A stretch of 64,000 bases of DNA from Terriglobia bacterium (GTDB taxonomy: Bacteria > Acidobacteriota > Terriglobia > Bryobacterales > Bryobacteraceae), in assembly GCA_020073615.1 (NCBI GenBank), contig JAIQEX010000008.1, positions 1 through 64,000 on the forward strand, given 5' to 3'. The notes under the pieces are model-generated. The model was given only the letters and a program-made list of their open reading frames with translations, did not search any database and was not told where the DNA came from. Made by a program: the position numbers and the translations under genes. Below are positions 48,717-62,451 of the stretch, in pieces (position 1 is the stretch's first letter; every line of letters starts with the position of its first letter).

Positions 48717-48722
48717 TATAAT
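48717..48722 (+). promoter_or_regulatory. Consensus -10 box for ispH
   Basis: A perfect TATAAT lies 17 bases before the ATG at 48740. It overlaps the TTG at 48722, which rules that out as the start. No good -35 was found. Confidence 0.5.
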
Positions 48723-48739
48723 TGAAAACATTCGCCTCT

Positions 48740-49711
48740 ATGCCCTTAAAGCCTTTTGCACGCAATGATGGCGCGGACAAGAAAATCTTCCTGCTCAAAC
48801 CGCGGGGCTTTTGCGCCGGGGTGGTCCGGGCGATCGATGTGGTGAAGATCGCGCTGGATCTGTACGGTCCGCCGGTGTATGTCCGGAAGGAGATCGTACA
48901 CAACAAGCACGTGGTGGACGAGCTGCGCGAGGCGGGCGCGATCTTCGTGGAAGAACTGGACGAAGTTCCGGCCGGGGCGCGGGCGATCTTCAGCGCGCAT
49001 GGCGTGGCGCCCGCGGTGCGCAGGCAGGCCAAAGAGCGGCGGCTCGATGTCATTGACGCCACCTGCCCGCTGGTCACTAAGGTGCACCTGGAAGCGGTGC
49101 GGTTTGCGCGCGATGGTTACAGCATCGTACTGATCGGGCACAAGGACCACGATGAGGTGATCGGCACGCTGGGCGAAGTGCCCGACCGCAGCTACCTGGT
49201 GGAGACGGTGGACGACGTGGACACGCTGGAGCTTTCCGACCCCACGCGCGTACGGTACCTGACCCAGACCACGCTCAGCCTGGACGAAACACGCGACATC
49301 ATCACGCGGCTGAAGGAGCGGTTTCCGATGGTCGAAGGGCCGCCCGCGCAGGACATCTGCTATGCCACGGAGAACCGGCAGATGGCCGTGAAGGCGGTAT
49401 CGGCGGCGGTGGATCTGCTGCTGGTGGTGGGCTCGCAAAACAGCTCGAACTCCAAGCGGCTGGTGGAGGTGGGCGACAATTTCGGCGTCCGTTCCTACCT
49501 GGTGAACGACCGCAACGACGTCGATGCCGCCTGGCTCGACGGGGTGAGGAACGTGGCCGTGACGGCCGGAGCTTCGGCCCCCGAGCACCTCGTATTGGAG
49601 CTCATCGAATTTCTGCGCGGGATGGGATTCCACCAGATGGAGGAGATTGAACTGGTGGATGAGGACGTGCGTTTTTCGTTGCCCGCGGAGTTGACCGTCT
49701 CAATCCGATGA
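48740..49711 (+). CDS. ispH: 4-hydroxy-3-methylbut-2-enyl diphosphate reductase
   Basis: This last enzyme of the MEP pathway reduces HMBPP to IPP and DMAPP with a 4Fe-4S cluster. The three cluster cysteines are in PRGFCAGVVRA, DATCPLVTKVH and QDICYATENRQ; other family motifs are HNKHVVDELRE, SAHGV, TQTTLS and VVGSQNSSNS. ATG at 48740 gives 323 residues. The stop overlaps the squalene-hopene cyclase ATG (49708-49711), so isoprenoid supply and hopanoid synthesis are coupled in one transcript. Confidence 0.95.
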   Translation: MPLKPFARNDGADKKIFLLKPRGFCAGVVRAIDVVKIALDLYGPPVYVRKEIVHNKHVVDELREAGAIFVEELDEVPAGARAIFSAHGVAPAVRRQAKERRLDVIDATCPLVTKVHLEAVRFARDGYSIVLIGHKDHDEVIGTLGEVPDRSYLVETVDDVDTLELSDPTRVRYLTQTTLSLDETRDIITRLKERFPMVEGPPAQDICYATENRQMAVKAVSAAVDLLLVVGSQNSSNSKRLVEVGDNFGVRSYLVNDRNDVDAAWLDGVRNVAVTAGASAPEHLVLELIEFLRGMGFHQMEEIELVDEDVRFSLPAELTVSIR

Positions 49712-51633
49712 GCGCGACATTTCAAGTGCGGAGCACGCTGGAGCCGGCCGCCGAACACGCGCGGCGGCGCGCGGCGGAGTATCTGGCCGGCCTGGCAGCG
49801 CGCGATGGGCACTGGTGCGCGGAGCTGACCGCCGACACCACGCTCGAGTCCGATTACATCCTCTTCCAGCTCTGGCTGTATCCGCCGCAGGACGGGCGGT
49901 GGGAGCCGGAAACGCGGCCGTCCATCGACAAGGCGGTGCGCTCGATTCTCGACCGGCAGCTTTCCGACGGCGGGTTCAACATCCACCGCGGCGGGCCGGC
50001 GGAAGTCAGCGCGTCGGTGAAGGCCTACTTCGCGCTGAAGTTGGCGGGCATGGCGGCGGACGATCCGCGCATGTCGCTGCTCGGGCGCCGCATTCTGGAG
50101 CTGGGCGGCATCCAGGCGGCCAACAGCTACGTCAAAGTCAACCTCAGCCTGTTCGATCTCTATCCGCGGCAATACTGCCCCAGCATTCCGCCGGAAGTGG
50201 TGCTGCTGCCGTTCGACTTTCTGTACCAGATGTCGGCCTGGACGCGCGCCATCGTGGTGTCGCTCGGCATCGTGCATGCCGCCAACCCGCGGCGTCCGGT
50301 TCCCGCGGGCTTCAACCTGGATGAGATCTGGCTGCCGGGCGTGAGCCCCGCGTTTCACTGGGACTACCGGTGGCTCACCTGGCACAATTTCTTTCTGGCG
50401 GTGGACCGGCTGCTGAAATGGTGGGAGCGCCGCGGGTCGCGCGCGCTGCGGCGAAGGGCCATCGAGAAAGCGCGCGACTGGATGGTGGAGCGGCTGCACC
50501 ATTCCGACGGTCTGGGAGCCATCTATCCGCCCATGATGTACTCGGTGATGGCGCTCGACGTGTTGGGCTACGCCGCGGACGATCCACTGCGCCAGGAAGC
50601 CTTGCGCCAGTTCAACAGCTTGTCGGTGGACGACGGCCGCCGGTTCTTCTTCCAGCCGTGTTTTTCTCCGGTGTGGGATACGGCCATCGCGGCCTACGCG
50701 CTGGGCCAGAGCGACCCCGAGAACCCCGCGGTGGAGCGCGCGGCCGATTGGCTGCTGGCGCGCGAGATCCGGCGCAAGGGCGACTGGTCGGTAAAGCGTC
50801 CCAAGACCGAGCCCTCGGGCTGGGCCTTCGAGTACGCCAACGAGTTTTATCCGGACATCGACGATACCGCCATGGTGGTGCTGGCGCTGAGCGAGGCGCG
50901 GGCTGCCGACCGGGCGGCGCAGAGAGCCTGCCACAAGCGGGCGCTCGACTGGCTGCTGGACATGCAATCGAGCGATGGCGGATGGGCCGCCTTCGACGCC
51001 GACAACAACTGGGAATTTCTGCGCAACGTGCCCTTCGCCGATCACAACGCCATGCTCGACCCCACCTGCCCGGATATCACCGGGCGTGTGCTGGAAGCGC
51101 TGGCGGCGCACGGCATGGGGCGCAACTATCGCGCCGTGCGGCGCGGCGTGGAGTGGCTGGTCCGCCACCAGCAGGCCGACGGAAGCTGGTACGGCCGCTG
51201 GGGGGTGGCGTACATTTACGGCACCTGTTTCGCCCTGCGCGGGCTGGCGGCCTCGGGCGAGAGCGACCGCGAGGTGCACGTGCTGCGCGCCGGCGAGTGG
51301 CTGCGCTCCATACAGAATGCCGACGGCGGGTGGGGCGAAAGCTGCGCCAGCTACGACCGGCAGGTTTACACCGGCGCCCAGAGTACGCCGTCGCAGACTG
51401 CGTGGGCCATCCTGGGGCTGATCGCCGGGGGCGATGCCGACAGCCTGAGCGTGCGCCACGGCATCGAATATCTGCTCGAAACCCAGCGCCCCGATGGGAG
51501 CTGGGAAGAGGAATTGGCTACCGGGACCGGGTTCCCCAAGGTGTTCTACCTGAATTACCACTTGTACAAGGATTATTTTCCGCTGCTCGCGTTGTCTTCC
51601 TTCGTGAAGGCCCGGGCCAACTCGCTTGGATAA
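49708..51633 (+). CDS. shc: Squalene-hopene cyclase
   Basis: It cyclises squalene to hopene at the membrane. The 641-residue length is normal. The catalytic DxDD motif appears in YPDIDDTAMVV near residue 390, and QW repeats are clear: QSSDGGWAAFDADNN, QQADGSWYGRWG, QNADGGWGESCASYD and QRPDGSWEEE. The N-terminal TLESDYILFQLWL and LYPRQYCP lines are also family features. It overlaps ispH by four bases and is followed at once by hpnH. Confidence 0.95.
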   Translation: MSATFQVRSTLEPAAEHARRRAAEYLAGLAARDGHWCAELTADTTLESDYILFQLWLYPPQDGRWEPETRPSIDKAVRSILDRQLSDGGFNIHRGGPAEVSASVKAYFALKLAGMAADDPRMSLLGRRILELGGIQAANSYVKVNLSLFDLYPRQYCPSIPPEVVLLPFDFLYQMSAWTRAIVVSLGIVHAANPRRPVPAGFNLDEIWLPGVSPAFHWDYRWLTWHNFFLAVDRLLKWWERRGSRALRRRAIEKARDWMVERLHHSDGLGAIYPPMMYSVMALDVLGYAADDPLRQEALRQFNSLSVDDGRRFFFQPCFSPVWDTAIAAYALGQSDPENPAVERAADWLLAREIRRKGDWSVKRPKTEPSGWAFEYANEFYPDIDDTAMVVLALSEARAADRAAQRACHKRALDWLLDMQSSDGGWAAFDADNNWEFLRNVPFADHNAMLDPTCPDITGRVLEALAAHGMGRNYRAVRRGVEWLVRHQQADGSWYGRWGVAYIYGTCFALRGLAASGESDREVHVLRAGEWLRSIQNADGGWGESCASYDRQVYTGAQSTPSQTAWAILGLIAGGDADSLSVRHGIEYLLETQRPDGSWEEELATGTGFPKVFYLNYHLYKDYFPLLALSSFVKARANSLG

Positions 51634-51637
51634 GTTT

Positions 51638-52744
51638 ATGAAATTTCCCCTCGCCATGACCGCCGGCCTCGCGCGCTACATTTTCAAGAACAAGCGGCAC
51701 CCGCGCCCGGAGTGGCAGAAGAACGCCGCCGCCGCGCCGGACGCCGCCAACCCGTTCCGCATCCTGCCTCCCAAGACCGGCGAGAAGCGCCGGCCGCATC
51801 CCATGATTGGCAAGCGGTTTCCGATCGTGCTCATGCTCGAGCCGCTGCACGCCTGCAACCTGACGTGCACCGGCTGCGGGCGCATCCGCGAGTACGAAAG
51901 CACCATCACGGAGCGCGTGCCGCTCGAAGAGTGCCTGCTCGCGGTGGAGGAATGCGGCGCCCCGGTGGTCTCGATTTGCGGCGGCGAGCCCATGATGTAT
52001 CCCCAGATCGGCGAGCTGGCGGCGGGCATCCTGGAGCGCAACCGGCACATCTACCTGTGCACCAACGGCATGTTCATCCGCAAGCGCCTCCACGAATTCT
52101 CGCCCGACTGGCGCTTCTACTTCAACGTGCACCTGGACGGCATGGAGAAGACGCACGACATCTGCGTGGAGCAGGAGGGTGTGTTCCGCAAGGCCATCGA
52201 CGGCATCCGGGCCGCCAAGGCCGCGGGCTTCCAGGTGTGTACCAACACCACCGTCTACAAAGAGACGGACATGCGCGAGATCGAGGAGCTGTTCGAGTAT
52301 CTGAAGCAATTCGGCGTGGACGGCCACCAGATCGCGCCGGCCTACGGGTATTCGGCGGTGAACGACCGCGAAATATTCCTGACGCGCGACGATGTGCACG
52401 AGAAGTTCAAGGACATCGACCGGCTGGCGAAGAAGTACGCCCTGCGGCAGACGCCCATCTACCTGGAGTTTCTCAAGGGCGAGCGCGAGTTGCCCTGTAC
52501 GGCCTGGGGCAACCCCACCTACAACGTGAAGGGGTGGAAGGGGCCGTGCTACCTGATCACCGACGGGCACTACAAGACCTTCGAAGGCCTGATGACGCAG
52601 ACTCCCTGGGAGAGCTACGGCCACGGCAACGATCCGCGCTGCGAGCACTGCATGGTGCACTGCGGGTTCGAGCCCTCGGCCGCGCTGGGCATCAACGTGG
52701 GCCTGGCGGACAATTTGAAGATGCTGGCATGGACGCTGCGCTAG
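51638..52744 (+). CDS. hpnH: Hopanoid biosynthesis radical SAM protein HpnH
   Basis: HpnH joins the adenosyl radical to hopene to make adenosylhopane, the first step of side-chain extension. The radical-SAM cluster motif is CNLTCTGCG (Cys-x3-Cys-x2-Cys, about residues 72-79), with CGGEPMM, NVHLDGMEKTHD and a Cys-rich end RCEHCMVHCGFEPS. ATG at 51638 follows GGATAAG; the TTG at 51626 is less likely. The length of 368 residues is normal. It lies four bases after shc; downstream, a toxin-antitoxin pair interrupts the run. Confidence 0.94.
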   Translation: MKFPLAMTAGLARYIFKNKRHPRPEWQKNAAAAPDAANPFRILPPKTGEKRRPHPMIGKRFPIVLMLEPLHACNLTCTGCGRIREYESTITERVPLEECLLAVEECGAPVVSICGGEPMMYPQIGELAAGILERNRHIYLCTNGMFIRKRLHEFSPDWRFYFNVHLDGMEKTHDICVEQEGVFRKAIDGIRAAKAAGFQVCTNTTVYKETDMREIEELFEYLKQFGVDGHQIAPAYGYSAVNDREIFLTRDDVHEKFKDIDRLAKKYALRQTPIYLEFLKGERELPCTAWGNPTYNVKGWKGPCYLITDGHYKTFEGLMTQTPWESYGHGNDPRCEHCMVHCGFEPSAALGINVGLADNLKMLAWTLR

Positions 52745-53044: not shown

Positions 53045-53482
53045 ATGGATCATCTGGTGGACACAAACGTCCTTTTGCGTAGCGTAGATCGCACTCACGC
53101 GATGCACAAGGAAGCCGTTGCGGCGCTCACAACGCTGCTCAACGTTGGGGAGGCGCTTTGTTTCACACCGCAAAACATGATCGAATTCTGGAGCGCCTGC
53201 ACGAGACCGGTGGATCGCAATGGATTAGGGTTGTTACCCCGTGAAGCCGATATAGAAGCGTCACGTCTGGAGAAGATTTTGACTTTGCTGCCGGACAATC
53301 CCTCGGTATATCCGGAGTGGCGGCGCCTGGTGGTGGCCCATGGCGTTTCCGGCGTGCAAGTCCATGATGCCCGACTGGTTGCCGCCATGAGTATCTACAA
53401 CGTCAAGAACATTCTCACGTTCAACGGCCGTGATTTCGCACGGTACCCCAATATCGGTGTATCCATCCGCACGATGTCTTGA
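53045..53482 (+). CDS. vapC: PIN-domain toxin, VapC-like
   Basis: The 145-residue ribonuclease-like toxin carries the four acidic residues of the PIN fold in order: HLVDTNVLL (Asp near 6), NMIEFWSACTR (Glu near 47), VHDARLVAAM (Asp near 105) and FNGRDFARY (Asp near 127). It would cleave RNA, probably tRNA or rRNA, when freed from its antitoxin. The gene is three bases downstream of the RHH-like antitoxin. It is more AT-rich than the flanking hopanoid genes, consistent with later insertion. Confidence 0.85.
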   Translation: MDHLVDTNVLLRSVDRTHAMHKEAVAALTTLLNVGEALCFTPQNMIEFWSACTRPVDRNGLGLLPREADIEASRLEKILTLLPDNPSVYPEWRRLVVAHGVSGVQVHDARLVAAMSIYNVKNILTFNGRDFARYPNIGVSIRTMS

Positions 53483-53596: not shown

Positions 53597-54571
53597 ATGA
53601 AACCCGCCCTGGTCACCGGCGCTTCCGGGTTTCTGGGATGGCACGTGGCGCGCGTTCTTCTGGAGCGGGGCTACGCGGTGCGCGCGCTGGTGCGGGCGGG
53701 AAGCCGCGTCGATTCCCTCGATGTGGAGCTCGTCACCGGCGATCTGCGCGATGTGGCATCGGTCGAGCGCGCCACCCGCGGGTGCGGGCTGGTTTTTCAC
53801 GTTGCCGCCGATTACCGGCTGTGGGCCAGAGATCCGCGCGAGTTGTACCGCTCCAATGTCGAGGGCACGCGTCATGTGCTGCAGGCCGCGAAGGACGCGG
53901 GCGTGGAGCGCGTGGTGTATACCAGCACGGTGGGCGCCATCGGCATCCCGCACGATGGCATAGGCGACGAGACCACGCCGGTCGCGCTCGAAGACATGGC
54001 GGGCGACTACAAGCGCTCGAAGTTTCTGGCCGAGCAGGCGGCGCTGGAATTTGCGCGCGCCGGATTGCCGGTGGTGATCGTCAACCCCACGGCGCCGGTG
54101 GGGGATCACGACGTGAAGCCGACGCCCACCGGCAAGATGGTGGCGGATTTCCTGGCGGGCGCCATGCCGGCGTTCATCGACACCGGTCTCAACGTGGTGG
54201 ATGTGCGCGATGTCGCCCAGGGGCACCTGCTGGCCTGCGAGCGGGGCAGGGTGGGCGAGCGGTACATCCTGGGCTCGGAAAATTTGACGCTGGCGCAGAT
54301 TCTGCAGAAGCTGGCGGCGATTACCGGCCGGCGGGCACCCACCATGCGGCTTCCCTATGCCGTGGCGTACTGCGCCGGGGTGTGCAGCACGGCGTGGGCC
54401 GGCGTGACGGGCGTGCCGCCGCGCGTGCCTCTGGAGGCCGTGCGCATGGCCCGCAAGAAGATGTGGGTGACGCATGAGAAGGCGCGGCGCGAGCTGGGCT
54501 TCGAGCCGCGTCCGGCGGAGGCGGCACTGCGGCGCGCGGTGGAGTGGTTCAGCCGGGCGGTGGCGGCATGA
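53597..54571 (+). CDS. hpnA: Hopanoid-associated sugar epimerase HpnA
   Basis: The 324-residue extended SDR has ALVTGASGFLGWHVARVLLE, VFHVAADYRLWARDP, YTSTVGAIG and the catalytic YKRSKFLAE (Tyr-x3-Lys). NPTAPVGDHDVKPTPTG is typical of HpnA, which is found in hopanoid clusters and thought to act on the sugar-derived side chain. Its stop overlaps the hpnG start (ATGA at 54568-54571). It has its own predicted -10 box, so the second half of the cluster is probably transcribed from here. Confidence 0.92.
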   Translation: MKPALVTGASGFLGWHVARVLLERGYAVRALVRAGSRVDSLDVELVTGDLRDVASVERATRGCGLVFHVAADYRLWARDPRELYRSNVEGTRHVLQAAKDAGVERVVYTSTVGAIGIPHDGIGDETTPVALEDMAGDYKRSKFLAEQAALEFARAGLPVVIVNPTAPVGDHDVKPTPTGKMVADFLAGAMPAFIDTGLNVVDVRDVAQGHLLACERGRVGERYILGSENLTLAQILQKLAAITGRRAPTMRLPYAVAYCAGVCSTAWAGVTGVPPRVPLEAVRMARKKMWVTHEKARRELGFEPRPAEAALRRAVEWFSRAVAA

Positions 54572-55263
54572 AGCTGCTGGTAGTGGCGGCCGACCGCATG
54601 GAATGCAGGGGCATTCTGGCGCGCGCCCAGCGGCAGTGCCCGGCGGCGGTGCGCGCGGATTGGGCGCGGCTGGTGCGGCTGGGCGGCCATGAGATCCTGC
54701 TGGTGGCCAATGGCGTGGGGGCCAAACGCGCGGCCGCGGCGGTGGATGCGGCGATCGAGAGCTTCCGGCCGGACGCCATCGTCAGCACGGGGTTCTGCGG
54801 CGCGCTGGCTCCGGAGCTGGCGGTAGGCGACGTGGTGGTCGGCACGGCGATTGCGGGCGCAGATCGGAATTATCCGGGCCGGCCGGTGGCCAGCCGTCTG
54901 GCGCACCATAGCGGCACGGTCTGCTCCATCGACCACGTGGCGCGGAGCGCGGAAGAGAAGCGGCGCCTGGGCGGCGGGGGAGCGATCGCCGTGGAAATGG
55001 AAGCCGCGGGGGTGGCCGCGCGGGCGCAGGCGCTGGGCCTGCCCTTTTACTGCGTGCGATCGGTAACGGACCTGGCCGGAGAGACCATGGTTAACGATTT
55101 CAATTCGGCCCTCCGTTCCGACGGCCATTTCGATACAATGGTTATTCTTACGCGTATTTTGCAGCAACCGTCGCGCCGCTTGCCGGAACTGTTCCGGCTG
55201 CGAAAACGTTGCCGCCGGGCAGCGCACACACTGGGAGAGTTTTTTGCCGATTGCCGATTGTGA
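54568..55263 (+). CDS. hpnG: Hopanoid nucleoside phosphorylase HpnG
   Basis: HpnG releases adenine from adenosylhopane, giving (phospho)ribosylhopane. The 231-residue protein has the nucleoside-phosphorylase fold: STGFCGALAPELAVGDVVVG, CSIDHVARSAEEKR and the substrate-holding AIAVEMEAAGVAARA, then CVRSVTDLAGETM. It overlaps hpnA by four bases. Its end overlaps the next dehydrogenase if that gene starts at TTG 55244, which suggests coupled expression of the two. Confidence 0.9.
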   Translation: MKLLVVAADRMECRGILARAQRQCPAAVRADWARLVRLGGHEILLVANGVGAKRAAAAVDAAIESFRPDAIVSTGFCGALAPELAVGDVVVGTAIAGADRNYPGRPVASRLAHHSGTVCSIDHVARSAEEKRRLGGGGAIAVEMEAAGVAARAQALGLPFYCVRSVTDLAGETMVNDFNSALRSDGHFDTMVILTRILQQPSRRLPELFRLRKRCRRAAHTLGEFFADCRL

Positions 55264-56341
55264 CTTAGGCGCCATCCCCGAAACCATGCACGCGGCGGTA
55301 TATCGCGGCCGGAGTGTGGTCAGCGTGGAGGAAGTGCCCACCCCCGAGATCGGACCGGGCGAAATCCTAATCCGCGTGGAAGCCTGCGGCATCTGCCACA
55401 CCGATCTCAAAAAGATCGAGCACAACCTGCTCGAGCCGCCGCGCATCTACGGGCATGAGACGGCGGGGGTGGTGGCGGCGGTGGGCGCGCGCGTCGCGCG
55501 GTTCCGGCCGGGCGACCGGGTAGTGGCCTTCCATCACATTCCATGCCTGGAGTGCTTCTATTGCCGGCGCAAGAACTTTGCGCAGTGCGCGGTGTACAAG
55601 AAGGTCGGCATCACCGCCGGCTTCGAACCGGCAGGCGGCGGATTCGCCCAGTATGTCCGCGTGATGGACTGGATCGTCGAGCGCGGCGTGGAGAAGATCC
55701 CCGACGGGGTCTCGTTCGAGCGCGCCACGCTGGTGGAGCCGCTCAACACCTGTCTGAAGGCGGTGACGCAGTGCGACCCGCAGCCGGAGGAGTTCGTGGC
55801 TATCCTGGGGCAAGGGCCCATCGGGCTGATGTTTACCATGCTGACGCACCGCACCGGCGCGCGCATCGCGGCCACCGATACCATCGGCGAGCGCCGGGAG
55901 ATTGCGGCGCGCTGCGGCGCGGAGTTCGCGTGGGACCCGCGCACCGTGGATGTCCCCGCGGAAATCAAACGGCTCACCGGCGGGCGCGGCGCCGACCTGG
56001 TAATTGTCGCGGCATCGGCCGCGGGGATTGTGGATCAGGCGATCGCCTGCTCGCGCCCCGGCTCGCGCATCCTGCTTTTCGCGCAGACCTCCGCCACGGA
56101 ACGGATCGAGGCGTCGGGGGCCGACATCTGCGTGGGCGAGCGCACCCTGTTCGGGTGCTATAGTGCTTCGGTGGAACTACAAAGCGAGTCCGCGCATCTG
56201 GTATTTGGCGGCGAACTACCGGTGGAGGAGCTGATCTCTCACCGCCTGCCTTTGGTTAAAATCCGTTCAGGATTCGATTTGGCATTGCATCCAGGACCTA
56301 AATCGTTGAAAATAATCGTTCAGCCACAGAGGTGGTCATAG
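55244..56341 (+). CDS. Zinc-dependent alcohol dehydrogenase (MDR), polyol-DH-like, in hopanoid cluster
   Basis: The 365-residue MDR protein has catalytic-zinc residues in CGICHTDLKK and GHETAGVVAAVG, the Glu in VEPLNTCLKA, structural-zinc cysteines in PCLECFYCRRKNFAQC, and a coenzyme motif GQGPIGLMF. The VEPL glutamate is as in sorbitol and threonine dehydrogenases. TTG at 55244 follows GGGAGA at a good distance and overlaps the hpnG end by 20 bases; ATG at 55286 has no ribosome site. Co-location suggests action on a hopanoid sugar side chain, but this is inference. Confidence 0.85.
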   Translation: MPIADCDLGAIPETMHAAVYRGRSVVSVEEVPTPEIGPGEILIRVEACGICHTDLKKIEHNLLEPPRIYGHETAGVVAAVGARVARFRPGDRVVAFHHIPCLECFYCRRKNFAQCAVYKKVGITAGFEPAGGGFAQYVRVMDWIVERGVEKIPDGVSFERATLVEPLNTCLKAVTQCDPQPEEFVAILGQGPIGLMFTMLTHRTGARIAATDTIGERREIAARCGAEFAWDPRTVDVPAEIKRLTGGRGADLVIVAASAAGIVDQAIACSRPGSRILLFAQTSATERIEASGADICVGERTLFGCYSASVELQSESAHLVFGGELPVEELISHRLPLVKIRSGFDLALHPGPKSLKIIVQPQRWS

Positions 56342-57381
56342 TGAAGAACCGCATGATGGCGGCTGTGCTTTACGGCAAGGAAAACTTGCAGGTGGAGCCG
56401 GTGGCCGTACCGACAATACAAAGCGGAGACATCCTGGTACGGGTGAAAGTGGCGCTGACCTGCGGTACGGACGTCAAAGTCTTCCGGCGGGGATATCATG
56501 CGCGCATGATCGTTCCCCCGGCGGTATTCGGGCACGAGCTGGCCGGCGACGTGGTAGCGGTGGGTGAGGGCGTCCAGAAGTTTGCCGTCGGGCAGCGTGT
56601 GGTGGCGGCGAATTCCGCGCCCTGCGAGGAATGTTTTTTCTGTAAGCGGGGACTGCAGAACCTGTGCGAAGACCTGCTGTTCAACAACGGCGCTTATGCG
56701 GAATACATCCGGATTCCGGCGCGCATCGTGGAACGGAATACCTATCCGATTCCGCGGCAGGTGGGGTATCAGGACGCGGCGCTGGTGGAGCCGCTGGCCT
56801 GCGTGGTGCGAGGTTTCGAAGAGAGCGCGCCGCGGGCCGGCGATACGGTGGCCATTGTGGGGCTGGGCCCCATCGGGCTGATGTTCGTGAAGCTGGCCAA
56901 GCTGTACGGCTGCCGCGTGATCGCCGTGGGGCGGCGCCAGACGCAGCTCGACCGCGCGGGCGTGCTGGGCGCCGATGAGCTGATCGTGGGAAGCGACCAC
57001 GCCAGCCCGGTACCGGTTATCCGCGGCCTGACGCACGGCCGCGGGGTGGATATCGCCATCGAGGCGGTGGGCAAGCCGCAGACCTGGGAGTGGGCGGTGA
57101 ACATGGTGCGGCGGGGCGGGGTGGTGAACTTCTTCGGCGGCTGCCCCAACGACAGCACCGTCAGCCTCGATACCGCGCTGCTGCACTATTCGGAAATCAC
57201 CTGCAAGGCGAGCTTCCACCACACGCCGGCGTACATTCGCAAGGCGCTCGACCTGATCGCGGCGGGGGACATCACGGCCTCGTTTTTCGTCAACAGCGAG
57301 GAGCCGCTGGCCAACCTCCTGGAAGTGATGCGCCACCTGATGAGCCACAACGGGCACCTGAAGACGGCGATCGTTCCGTAG
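56341..57381 (+). CDS. Second zinc-dependent dehydrogenase (MDR), sorbitol/threonine-DH-like
   Basis: The 346-residue protein has TCGTDVKVF, FGHELAGDVVAVG, structural-zinc cysteines in PCEECFFCKRGLQNLC, VEPLACVVRG and the NAD motif VGLGPIGLMFVKLA, close to sorbitol/threonine dehydrogenases. GTG at 56341 shares one base with the stop of the preceding gene and follows AGAGG. It is only distantly related to its neighbour, so this is not a fresh tandem duplicate. It leads into hpnC after seven bases. A polyol or sugar-alcohol reaction on hopanoid side chains is plausible. Confidence 0.85.
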   Translation: MKNRMMAAVLYGKENLQVEPVAVPTIQSGDILVRVKVALTCGTDVKVFRRGYHARMIVPPAVFGHELAGDVVAVGEGVQKFAVGQRVVAANSAPCEECFFCKRGLQNLCEDLLFNNGAYAEYIRIPARIVERNTYPIPRQVGYQDAALVEPLACVVRGFEESAPRAGDTVAIVGLGPIGLMFVKLAKLYGCRVIAVGRRQTQLDRAGVLGADELIVGSDHASPVPVIRGLTHGRGVDIAIEAVGKPQTWEWAVNMVRRGGVVNFFGGCPNDSTVSLDTALLHYSEITCKASFHHTPAYIRKALDLIAAGDITASFFVNSEEPLANLLEVMRHLMSHNGHLKTAIVP

Positions 57382-57388
57382 GAGGCGC

Positions 57389-58303
57389 GTGCCTCTTCCA
57401 CCAGTCGAATTCGCGCGCTCCGCCGAGGCGCTGGGTAAAACCTATTCGCCCGAGGAGGCGCGCGCCTATACGCGCTGGCTGGCCACCCATCACTACGAGA
57501 ACTTCCACGTGGTGAGCTTTCTGCTTCCCAAGCGGCTGCACCAGGATTTCTACAACGTCTACGCCTATTGCCGGTGGGCCGACGACCTGGGCGACGAAAC
57601 CGGCGACTGTGCCGAAAGCCTCCGCCTGCTGGCCTGGTGGCGCGAGGAGCTGGACGCCATGTACCAGGGCCGCGCCACCCATCCGGTGTATGTCGCGCTC
57701 GCCGACACCGTCAAAAAGTACGGCATCCCTAGCCAGCCGTTCGCCGATCTCATCGCGGCGTTCGTGGCGGACCAGACCGTGACGCGCTACCGCGACTGGG
57801 ACGAGCTGTTCGGCTACTGCCGCTATTCCGCCAACCCGGTGGGCCGCCTGGTGCTGTACCTCTGCGGCTATGCGGACGCGGAGCGGCAGCGGCTCTCCGA
57901 TGCCACCTGCACGGCGCTCCAGCTCGCCAATTTCTGGCAGGATGTGACTGTGGACTTGCGCCAGGACCGCATCTACCTTCCGCTCGCGGTCATGGAGCGC
58001 CACGGCTACACGGCGGACGAACTCCTGGCGCGCCGTTTTCGGCCGGCATTCCGCGAGGCGATGCGCGAGGCGGTGGAGAAGGCGCGCGGGCTCTTCCTCG
58101 AGGGCCTGCCGCTGGCGCGCATGGTGGACCGGCGGCTGGCGCTCGATATCGACCTGTTCAGCCGCGGCGGCCTGCGCGTGCTCGAGAAGATCGAACGGCA
58201 GGGCTACGACGTGCTGGCCGCGCGCCCGGCCGTTTCCAGGGTGGAGCGGGTGCGGCTGCTCCTGGGATCGCTGGCGCGCGCCGCGTTTTCGCGAGCGGCG
58301 TGA
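57389..58303 (+). CDS. hpnC: Squalene synthase-like HpnC
   Basis: HpnC belongs to the squalene/phytoene synthase family; in the HpnCDE route it converts presqualene diphosphate to hydroxysqualene. The 304-residue protein has the first aspartate motif in YCRWADDLGDE (about 65-70) and the second in NFWQDVTVDLRQDRIYLP. GTG at 57389 is the start. Its stop overlaps the start of hpnD (GTG 58300 or ATG 58303). It follows the second dehydrogenase by seven bases, so all are likely on one transcript. Confidence 0.92.
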   Translation: MPLPPVEFARSAEALGKTYSPEEARAYTRWLATHHYENFHVVSFLLPKRLHQDFYNVYAYCRWADDLGDETGDCAESLRLLAWWREELDAMYQGRATHPVYVALADTVKKYGIPSQPFADLIAAFVADQTVTRYRDWDELFGYCRYSANPVGRLVLYLCGYADAERQRLSDATCTALQLANFWQDVTVDLRQDRIYLPLAVMERHGYTADELLARRFRPAFREAMREAVEKARGLFLEGLPLARMVDRRLALDIDLFSRGGLRVLEKIERQGYDVLAARPAVSRVERVRLLLGSLARAAFSRAA

Positions 58304-59139
58304 TGCGCGCCGTGGAGCAATCCTACCAATACTGCCGCCGCGTGGCGCGCCGCCGGGCCAAGAACTTTTACTACTCTTTCCTGCTGCTGGCGGCGCATCA
58401 GCGCAAGGCCATGTGCGCCATCTATGCCTTCATGCGGCATTGCGACGACCTGAGCGACGAACCCGGCGCCACGCGCGCGGCCCTCGACGGCTGGCGCGCG
58501 GAGATGGAGAATGCCCTCGACGGCCGGTTCAGCGGGCATCCCCTATGGCCGGCGTTCCATCACACGGTGCGCCGCTTCGGCATCCCGCACGAATATTTCC
58601 GGGCGATGATCGACGGCGTGGTTTCCGACCTGGAGCCGCGCCGCTTCGCGACTTTCGACGAGCTCTACCAGTATTGCTACCAGGTAGCGTCGGTGGTGGG
58701 GCTGACCACCATCCATATCTTCGGCTTCGACACGCGCAGCGCGCTGCCGCTGGCCGAGAAATGCGGCGTGGCGTTTCAGCTAACGAATATTTTGCGCGAT
58801 ATCCGCGAAGACGCCGCCCGCGGCCGCATCTATTTGCCCGCCGAGGACCTGCGGCGCTTCGGCGTGACCGAAGACGAATTGCGCGCGGGCCGGCGCAGCG
58901 AGGCGTTCCTGCGCCTCATGCGCTTTGAGGCGGCGCGTGCCCGTGCGTACTACGACGAATCGCAGCCGCTGCTGGAGCTGATCCATCCCCGCAGCCGGCC
59001 CTCGCTGTGGGCGCTGATTGCGATCTACTCGCGGCTGCTGGAGCGGATCGAACGCCGCAAGTACGACGTGTTCACGCGGCGCGTGCGGCTGTCGCTGCTG
59101 GAGAAGTCGTGGATTGTGGTGCGGGCCCTGGTTTCGTGA
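58303..59139 (+). CDS. hpnD: Presqualene diphosphate synthase HpnD
   Basis: HpnD condenses two farnesyl diphosphates to presqualene diphosphate. The 278-residue protein shows the two aspartate-rich motifs in MRHCDDLSDE and NILRDIREDAARGRIYLP, and YQYCYQVASVVGL. The start could be GTG 58300 or ATG 58303; both overlap the hpnC stop. The expected third gene, hpnE, is not next; after hpnD comes a 395-base stretch and then an FmdB-type gene. Confidence 0.92.
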   Translation: MRAVEQSYQYCRRVARRRAKNFYYSFLLLAAHQRKAMCAIYAFMRHCDDLSDEPGATRAALDGWRAEMENALDGRFSGHPLWPAFHHTVRRFGIPHEYFRAMIDGVVSDLEPRRFATFDELYQYCYQVASVVGLTTIHIFGFDTRSALPLAEKCGVAFQLTNILRDIREDAARGRIYLPAEDLRRFGVTEDELRAGRRSEAFLRLMRFEAARARAYYDESQPLLELIHPRSRPSLWALIAIYSRLLERIERRKYDVFTRRVRLSLLEKSWIVVRALVS

Positions 59140-61426: not shown

Positions 61427-61544
61427 TCCCGCCGCAATGCAAGTTTCGAGCCAGCGGGAAGGCTGCGTTTTCAGCGCGGCAGACGCGGGCGCGTGTCCGC
61501 CTGTGGGACGCGGTGTGTGCCGGTGGCGGAACACCATTCTCGGC

Positions 61545-61550
61545 TATCAT
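61545..61550 (+). promoter_or_regulatory. -10 box for the beta-lactamase-like gene, probably leaderless
   Basis: TATCAT ends seven bases before the ATG at 61558. No ribosome-binding site is visible between them. Confidence 0.4.
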
Positions 61551-61557
61551 CAAATTC

Positions 61558-62451
61558 ATGCGCGCCCTCCCGATCCTCATGGTGGCCCTGGCGGCGGCCG
61601 CGGCGGCCCAGCCGATCGAAGATGCCCTGCGGGCGCGGATCGGCGATTTCCGCGGCACGGTTTCGGTATACGCGAAAAATCTGGACACCGGCATGGCAGC
61701 CGGCATTCGCGCGTCCGATCCGGTCCGCACGGCGAGCACCATCAAGCTGCCCATCATGCTCGCGGTCTTCGATGCCGTCGCCCGCGGCCAGGCGAAGTGG
61801 ACGGAGCCGCTCACCGCCAGCGCCGCCGATAAGGTGTCCGGCTCCGGCATCCTGGGCAGCGAAATCTCCGACGGCGTGAAGTTGCCGCTCGCCGATGTCC
61901 TGCACCTGATGATCGTGCTCAGCGACAACACGGCCACCAACATGATCCTGGAGCGGTTCCCGGCCGACGCGGTCAACGCGTACCTGGACGGGATCGGCAT
62001 CCGGAGCACGCGCGCGCTGCGCAAAATCCGCGGCGATGGCGCTCAGCTCAAGGCCCCGGAGGGCTGGTCGGCGGCCGGAAAGCTTCCCGAGAACCAGAAA
62101 TACGGCTTGGGCGTGTCGACGCCGCGCGACATGGTGGCCATCCTCGAGAAACTGGCGCGTGGGGAGATGGTCAGCGCCGCGGCCTCGCAGGAGATGATCG
62201 CGATTCTCAAGCGCTGCCAGGACAGTACCGGGATCCGCCGCCGCATGGGCAGCCTGGCAGTGGCGAACAAGACCGGCGCGCTCGACGCGTTGCGCTCCGA
62301 CGTGGGAATCGTGTACTCCCAGGGCGGCCGCATCGCCATGGCCATCACGGTGGATGGCATGCCCGAGACCGATTACACGCCCGACAATGCCGGCTCTCTG
62401 CTGATCGCGGACCTGGCGAAGATCCTGGTCGACGGGCTCGCCAGGAAGTAA
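61558..62451 (+). CDS. Class A beta-lactamase-like serine hydrolase
   Basis: The 297-residue exported protein has a signal peptide (about 1-18). Penicillin-interactive motifs are in place: STIK (nucleophile Ser60, Lys63), SDN at 122-124 and KTG in NKTGALDA. The spacing from Ser60 to SDN (62) is as in class A. I cannot find the omega-loop ExxLN glutamate in the segment before VSTPRDM, so deacylation may be slow and the protein may act as a cell-wall peptidase or a poor lactamase. ATG at 61558 gives the signal peptide. It stands alone, divergent from the broken permease. Confidence 0.8.
   Translation: MRALPILMVALAAAAAAQPIEDALRARIGDFRGTVSVYAKNLDTGMAAGIRASDPVRTASTIKLPIMLAVFDAVARGQAKWTEPLTASAADKVSGSGILGSEISDGVKLPLADVLHLMIVLSDNTATNMILERFPADAVNAYLDGIGIRSTRALRKIRGDGAQLKAPEGWSAAGKLPENQKYGLGVSTPRDMVAILEKLARGEMVSAAASQEMIAILKRCQDSTGIRRRMGSLAVANKTGALDALRSDVGIVYSQGGRIAMAITVDGMPETDYTPDNAGSLLIADLAKILVDGLARK

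Follow-up and report, generated by a model that had tools for sequence, protein, structure and literature searches.

Two zinc medium-chain dehydrogenases of an acidobacterial hopanoid operon as candidate enzymes of C35 side-chain formation

The window analysed here is a 64,000-nucleotide stretch from a Terriglobia bacterium (GenBank contig JAIQEX010000008.1, positions 1 to 64,000). It belongs to contig 116 in a draft genome of 6.96 Mb and carries a run of hopanoid genes on its plus strand. Between hpnG and hpnC in this run lie two genes for zinc medium-chain dehydrogenases (MDRs), MDR1 (55286..56341, +) and MDR2 (56332..57381, +), and we propose that, in one branch of the Acidobacteriota, both may be oxidoreductases dedicated to forming the C35 hopanoid side chain. 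Synteny and co-occurrence with HpnH give good support for placing the two genes in C35 side-chain synthesis. Our more specific, tentative suggestion is that MDR2 is an NADPH-dependent reductase of the HpnG product and MDR1 an accessory NAD-linked side-chain oxidoreductase.

From other bacteria it is known that HpnH adds an adenosyl unit and that HpnG removes adenine. The conversion of ribosylhopane to bacteriohopanetetrol (BHT) is a core C35 hopanoid step, and the accessible part of a 2025 paper (PMC12583986) gives both the enzyme for it and the function of hpnA as not established, in agreement with the initial annotation of this DNA, which knew of no gene assigned to that reduction. The available text of PMC9228677 states that it is not known whether the reductive dephosphorylation after HpnG happens spontaneously or needs an enzyme.

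Results

Conservation of the hpnG-MDR1-MDR2-hpnC order

Searching the genomes of bacterial and archaeal species with MDR1 gave 181 confirmed relatives, and the best 80 of these, picked by MDR1 similarity and belonging to the Acidobacteriota by title or cluster, were examined. hpnG lies directly upstream of MDR1 in all 80 loci; where the contig reaches far enough, MDR2 lies directly downstream of MDR1 in 75 of 75 loci and hpnC comes next in 73 of 73. The order that the initial annotation had proposed to compare across acidobacterial hopanoid clusters is thus conserved, and it recurs in both of the whole-genome draws that were added because the 80 relatives had been chosen by similarity. One draw comprised 297 genomes of the phylum Acidobacteriota and the other 181 genomes of the class. 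The genome searches scored the top-ranked first-look candidates, seven per genome in the MDR searches of the phylum and eleven per genome in the class. Thresholds in the phylum were 1e-40 for HpnH, 1e-20 for HpnG, 1e-128 or better for MDR1 and 1e-133 or better for MDR2, with five remote MDR1 matches at 1e-72 to 1e-77 and the weaker MDR2 matches set aside; in the class both MDRs were taken at 1e-100.

The phylum draw gave HpnH in 77 genomes, HpnG in 71, MDR1 in 46 and MDR2 in 48. HpnH is present in 42 of the 46 MDR1 genomes, which is not the picture of homologues lying mainly outside hopanoid clusters that, according to the initial annotation, would speak against its proposal. All 46 also have MDR2, the two genes being adjacent with MDR2 downstream in 27 and not adjacent in 19, and MDR1 stands directly behind hpnG in 27 of the 29 genomes with both matches, the exceptions being G084 (one open reading frame, ORF, between them) and G066 (on another contig). 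Four MDR1 genomes have no HpnH match: next to the pair G113 carries shc, hpnA and hpnD and G211 carries hpnA and hpnD, and G282 has a weak HpnG match on the same contig, so that G221 is the true exception.

In the class draw HpnH was found in 138 genomes, MDR1 in 118 and MDR2 in 123. MDR1 is present in 116 of the 138 HpnH genomes versus 2 of the 43 without HpnH (both incomplete metagenome-assembled genomes, 85% and 81%), and MDR2 in 121 of 138 versus 2 of 43, with 41 of the 43 HpnH-negative genomes lacking both MDRs. MDR2 directly follows MDR1 in 90 of the 118 MDR1 genomes. The draws overlap by 31 MDR1 genomes, giving 133 different ones in total, 132 of which have MDR2. Draft gaps are possible in this material, as the contig stops at the expected gene in G273, G442, G322, G408, G417, G440 and G347.

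Zinc and cofactor sites

Both ORFs match ADH_N and ADH_zinc_N above the Pfam gathering score, confirming the initial annotation of two zinc dehydrogenases between hpnG and hpnC, and their catalytic and structural zinc sites are complete, as it had also stated. In MDR1 the catalytic ligands C37, H57, E58 and E151 and the structural ligands C87, C90, C93 and C101 are invariant in an alignment of 25 rows; in MDR2 the same holds for C44, H68, E69 and E153 and for C98, C101, C104 and C112 in 24 rows. Within the hopanoid clades of families f1, f2, f28 and f50 the full CHEE and CCCC sets are present in 22 of 22 MDR1 rows and in 22 of 23 MDR2 rows, the sole row missing a set (L034) being itself truncated; proteins shorter than 250 amino acids were excluded from these counts and from those of the cofactor site.

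In MDR proteins an acidic residue at the end of strand beta2 is a mark of NAD, and a basic or neutral set at this place is a mark of NADP. The beta2 end of MDR1 reads T-D-T, with D198 as the acidic residue, and Asp or Glu is found there in 22 of 22 hopanoid-clade rows. MDR2 has G-R-R (residues 200-202), and its beta2 end is non-acidic in 22 of 23 rows (Gly-Arg-Arg, Gly-Lys-Arg, Val-Lys-Arg or similar), with an Asp in G037 as the exception. It therefore appears, by this sequence rule for cofactor preference, that the Rossmann site is of the NAD type in MDR1 and of the NADP type in MDR2. Structure models of both proteins (predicted local distance difference test scores of 89.6 and 91.8) show ordinary MDR folds and do not settle the substrate.

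Rearranged and partial clusters

Several loci depart from the standard order. In an Acidobacteriaceae-type split, read in three genomes, MDR1 is found with hpnG (L095) and MDR2 before hpnC-hpnD-hpnE (L096), with the same arrangement at L145, and L100 has the order MDR2-hpnC-hpnD-hpnE. In family f28 all six loci (L094, L140, L141, L142, L147 and L148) read hpnA-MDR1-MDR2 with no hpnG between. In family f86 MDR2 follows directly after hpnG, MDR1 is missing and hpnC comes behind MDR2 (L150, L151, L152 and L154, with both sides in view); among the seven HpnH-bearing genomes of this family MDR1 is present in none and MDR2 in five, with Gly-Lys-Arg at the beta2 end in all five. Since MDR2 accompanies MDR1 in 132 of the 133 MDR1 genomes, the lone MDR1 (G442) standing at a contig end, and since f86 has MDR2 alone, MDR1 is found only together with MDR2 and MDR2 can stand alone.

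The idea of a role in the cyclitol-ether branch, in which HpnJ makes the cyclitol ether, came from the best score of both MDRs, which was against an inosose dehydrogenase model, and was rejected. HpnJ is absent or below its cut-off in all four f28 genomes tested, and as both MDRs are kept there, the pair is not tied to this branch and goes with hpnH, hpnA and hpnG rather than with hpnJ. HpnI matched in 47 of 50 genomes, 40 of them above the cut-off, with a distribution that does not track the MDRs. HpnG is less conserved than MDR1, with 36-85% identity to the protein of the window across the 80 loci versus 68-95% for MDR1, and in the phylum all 71 genomes with an HpnG match stay below the HpnG family cut-off.

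Proposed function and its alternatives

In the proposed pathway HpnH would add the adenosyl unit and HpnG would then remove adenine. MDR2, with its NADPH-type site, would reduce the sugar carbonyl of the HpnG product, turning ribosylhopane into BHT, and MDR1, with its NAD-type site, would carry out an optional second step on the same polyol, an oxidation or an interconversion, that needs MDR2. MDR2 is taken as the better candidate for ribosylhopane reduction because it stands alone beside hpnG in f86 and has the NADPH-type site. From these observations we infer the substrate, the direction of the reaction and the division of work between MDR1 and MDR2, and we regard the resulting assignment as possible rather than probable. 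The question is directly testable, as there are two candidate genes and natural relatives with MDR2 only or with no MDR, and it is of wider concern since geochemists read side-chain chemistry in hopane biomarkers.

A number of observations weigh against this assignment. Ribosylhopane reduction yields a primary alcohol, unlike the reactions of the nearest relatives of known function, which mostly act on secondary alcohols or ketoses. MDR1 is missing in 35 of the 77 HpnH genomes of the phylum, mostly from other families. Of 20 MDR-free clusters selected because HpnG lies near HpnH (L104, L107 and L110-L127), 17 gave tblastn matches for shc, hpnH, hpnA and hpnG; relatives of MDR1 or MDR2 were not found in these 20 clusters except for one 27% paralogue in L118. 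Since such clusters have hpnG without the MDRs, the step must be done otherwise there. The pair is thus not present in all C35 hopanoid makers, as one enzyme for all would be, and its use may be lineage-specific. BHT derivatives are moreover reported from Chloracidobacterium thermophilum, which according to the accessible part of PMC5462960 lacks ug2, the published counterpart of MDR2. What stands of the initial suggestion that the MDRs reduce ribosylhopane is therefore their association with the hopanoid side chain, while the missing MDR1 in those 35 genomes and the pair of family f39 outside hopanoid loci (see below) speak against a general role.

Within the class, 22 of the 138 HpnH genomes lack MDR1; five of them are the MDR2-only genomes of f86 and several stop at contig ends. 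The locus was read for 19 of the 22, with G414 and G432, plus G250 of the phylum draw, left out. Family f87 (L164, L165) shows shc-hpnH-hpnA-hpnG with no MDR, and in four genomes of f84 (L159-L162) hpnH-hpnA is followed by neither hpnG nor an MDR. In G007, rated 100% complete, contig C102 (L098) carries ispH-shc-hpnH and then other ORFs; no hpnA lies behind hpnH, and HpnG, MDR1 and MDR2 were not found, which reflects either a joint loss or an assembly gap. Family searches gave no common replacement enzyme near hpnG in L104, L107, L091, L103, L120, L123, L124 and L127, and elsewhere the ORFs were listed. In family f47 an F420/luciferase-like monooxygenase (LLM)-type oxidoreductase and a pyridoxal phosphate-dependent decarboxylase follow hpnG in L104 (10295-12641), L110, L112 and L116, with 95-97% identity to those of L104; L111, L113 and L115 of the same genus are without these two genes behind hpnG, and L114 has a fragment. 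Mevalonate-pathway genes are present in L123 (f26) and L127 (f47).

Also unfavourable to the proposed assignment, the pair occurs outside hopanoid loci. In f39 (G066 and G221; L089 and L090) a WYL regulator, a proline dehydrogenase, MDR1 and MDR2 form a run away from any hopanoid locus; the hopanoid cluster of G066 lies at another place (L091), and G221 gave no match for SHC, HpnH, HpnG or HpnI. The active-site motifs of f39 are nearly unchanged, RGYHARMI, FHHTP and SYSASV being kept, and in a tree from which five rows (one truncated MDR2 and four remote paralogues) were left out the f39 MDR1 falls inside the hopanoid-cluster MDR1 clade (clade support 100/99, with a weak place within it) and the f39 MDR2 next to the MDR2 clade. 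G132 (f60) carries an MDR2 that matches at a comparable level, with no HpnH or SHC found, and older MDR1-like/MDR2-like pairs in f25, f45, f32, f60 and f77 lie away from hpn genes (in f77 about 14 kb from hpnH, L135), with no common neighbour gene in their neighbourhoods. In Rhodococcus opacus an MDR2 homologue (46%) has genes for an FGGY kinase, an MFS transporter and a class II aldolase as neighbours, a setting that resembles a polyol locus. All this would suit a pair whose substrate is a soluble polyol or sugar and which owes its place in the hopanoid operon to a supply or redox role rather than to work on the lipid itself. Such a role is, in our view, unlikely, given that 45 of the 46 MDR1 carriers of the phylum have HpnH or hopanoid-cluster genes beside the pair (G282 by its weak HpnG match) and that 41 of the 43 HpnH-negative class genomes have neither MDR.

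The split in cofactor sites is open to a different interpretation, namely that MDR1 oxidises a BHT hydroxyl (e.g. at C34) with NAD+ and that MDR2, using NADPH, reduces the resulting ketone from the opposite side to yield an epimer, another enzyme having made BHT. The NAD/NADP-type split held in 22 of 22 MDR1 and 22 of 23 MDR2 hopanoid-clade rows, the adjacency in 90 of 118 class genomes, the ketose and secondary-alcohol enzymes among the relatives and the existence of 34R and 34S BHT isomers in print (PMC12583986, as far as available) are all consistent with an epimerising pair. We nevertheless hold it to be unlikely, because f86 retains MDR2 alone, the genes are not adjacent in 19 of 46 genomes of the phylum draw, and the literature searched gave no stereochemical data on these bacteria. 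More broadly, an NAD+/NADPH two-enzyme module could set the stereochemistry or oxidation pattern of the side chain and give a recognisable bacteriohopanepolyol isomer, possibly a lineage-specific biomarker; we consider this improbable, and if it were true the half-reaction would be seen in f86, which has only MDR2. As for HpnA, a short-chain dehydrogenase/reductase (SDR), the accessible text of PMC5462960 names it as a possible ribosylhopane enzyme, in which case the MDRs would merely decorate the product. Almost all clusters read contain hpnA, whether or not they have the MDRs, which makes HpnA a competing candidate and weighs against MDR2 in that role; with cluster L123 lacking an hpnA match, we judge this explanation unlikely. 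Finally, MDR2 remains with hpnC in split clusters and might be tied to the squalene side. HpnC, HpnD and HpnE suffice for squalene according to the part of PMC5462960 that cites Pan 2015, the clusters concerned also carry HpnE (L096, L097), and in f86 MDR2 is directly behind hpnG, though hpnC follows there too, so that we give a squalene role very little credence.

The hopanoid locus and its neighbouring genes

The run reads ispH, shc, hpnH, a PIN-domain ORF, hpnA, hpnG, MDR1, MDR2, hpnC and hpnD, all on the plus strand, with families assigned from NCBIfam and Pfam, and ispH by synteny. The first gene of the conserved run (48722..49711) recurs in related loci by tblastn, and we take it to be ispH. 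The name agrees with PMC5462960. It is followed by shc, the squalene-hopene cyclase (49708..51633; TIGR01507, 637.9 bits, above the cut-off), and by hpnH, the radical SAM adenosyl-hopene transferase (51626..52744; TIGR03470, 420.7 bits, above the cut-off). On contig C46:11031-12878 (-) the source genome encodes another squalene-hopene cyclase, which scores similarly (623.1 bits). Some relatives (L014, L020, L027, L035, L039, L046 and others) have no hpnH match between shc and hpnA, and the HpnH matches of f1 fall into two groups, covering profile positions 1-318 (about 1e-155 to 1e-166) and 23-316 (about 1e-119 to 1e-128), which suggests two putative HpnH types replacing each other. The PIN-domain ORF between hpnH and hpnA (53045-53482; PF01850) was seen by tblastn at 1e-10 in none of the 80 related loci and therefore looks like an insertion into the operon.

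Downstream lie hpnA, the hopanoid-associated SDR "sugar epimerase" (53597..54571; TIGR03466, 487.6 bits, above the cut-off), and hpnG, the hopanoid-associated phosphorylase (54568..55263), assigned by position and by TIGR03468 as top family at 168.2 bits, below the cut-off of 187.1. MDR1 and MDR2 are succeeded by hpnC, a squalene synthase (57389..58303; TIGR03464, 357.6 bits, above the cut-off), and by hpnD, a presqualene diphosphate synthase (58300..59139; TIGR03465, 279.0 bits versus a cut-off of 278.6), with a beta-lactamase-family protein (61513-62451, +; PF13354) downstream of the operon. The tight spacing of the initial annotation, overlaps or gaps of 0-7 bases, holds for MDR1/MDR2, which overlap by 10 bases with GTG 56332 as the MDR2 start (with ATG 56353 there would be an 11-base gap), and for the 7-base gap between MDR2 and hpnC, and fails for hpnG and MDR1, which are 22 bases apart. 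This gap is based on ATG 55286, whose Met is invariant across the MDR1 alignment; the alternative start TTG 55244 would overlap hpnG. hpnC and hpnD overlap by 4 bases. With 15 ADH_zinc_N matches in the whole source genome, two neighbouring ones within a single hopanoid operon are not explained by their number.

Comparison with known enzymes and published clusters

Among the nearest solved relatives of MDR2 by profile and fold is the NADP(H)-dependent ketose reductase (sorbitol dehydrogenase) 1e3j, its top Foldseek match at a template modelling (TM) score of 0.88, and the Ala-Arg of 1e3j aligns with G200-R201 at the beta2 end. The two proteins differ in sequence, with 28% identity, and in the active site. 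The motif Phe-Arg-Tyr, whose Arg-Tyr has a substrate role, defines the polyol (sorbitol/xylitol) dehydrogenase family and is present in 1e3j, whereas MDR2 carries an invariant F295-H296-H297 in its place. The MDR1 profile gave no match against PDB sequences at 1e-45. L-threonine 3-dehydrogenase (TIGR00692) and scyllo-inosose 3-dehydrogenase IolM (NF041097) are among the best NCBIfam models for both MDRs, which score 139-161 bits versus cut-offs of 458.35 and 450 (139 and 158.8 bits with TIGR00692) and are not members of these families. TIGR03366, "HpnZ_proposed", belongs to the same superfamily and shows a resemblance in name; its model is described as associated with phosphonate catabolism, and with 87.6 and 105.3 bits versus a cut-off of 328.1 this identity was rejected. 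On plasmids no homologue of MDR1 was found at 1e-40, and MDR2 gave five at 1e-50, all below 60% identity.

Searches for a literature assignment of ug1 or ug2, or of a ribosylhopane reductase, found none, most subscription papers lying outside the search; the word ribonylhopane gave no paper, and searches for stereoisomer genes and acidobacterial lipid data, among whose results were PMC12583986 and PMC8537080, showed nothing on the MDR pair. The genes themselves have already appeared in print, without function, under the names ug1 and ug2 in work on the hopanoid clusters of Acidobacteria (Sinninghe Damste et al. 2017, PMC5462960, as far as its text was accessible). As with MDR1 and MDR2, ug1 comes after hpnA-hpnG and ug2, in many cases annotated as a Zn-binding alcohol dehydrogenase with a length of about 350 amino acids, before hpnC in Acidobacteria of SD1 and SD3, and the same position is seen in L095, L096, L143, L144, L149 and the 80 loci; the equation of MDR1 with ug1 and of MDR2 with ug2 is by gene order (L095, L096) and not by locus tags. 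The accessible part of that paper differs from our account in that it ties ug2 to the squalene genes, does not name the family of ug1 and contains neither the cofactor split nor an MDR2-only family. Membership of the two genes in hopanoid clusters was thus known, and what is new, as far as the literature searched goes, is the functional proposal together with the cofactor split, the MDR2-only arrangement of f86, the f28 clusters without HpnJ and the evidence from f39.

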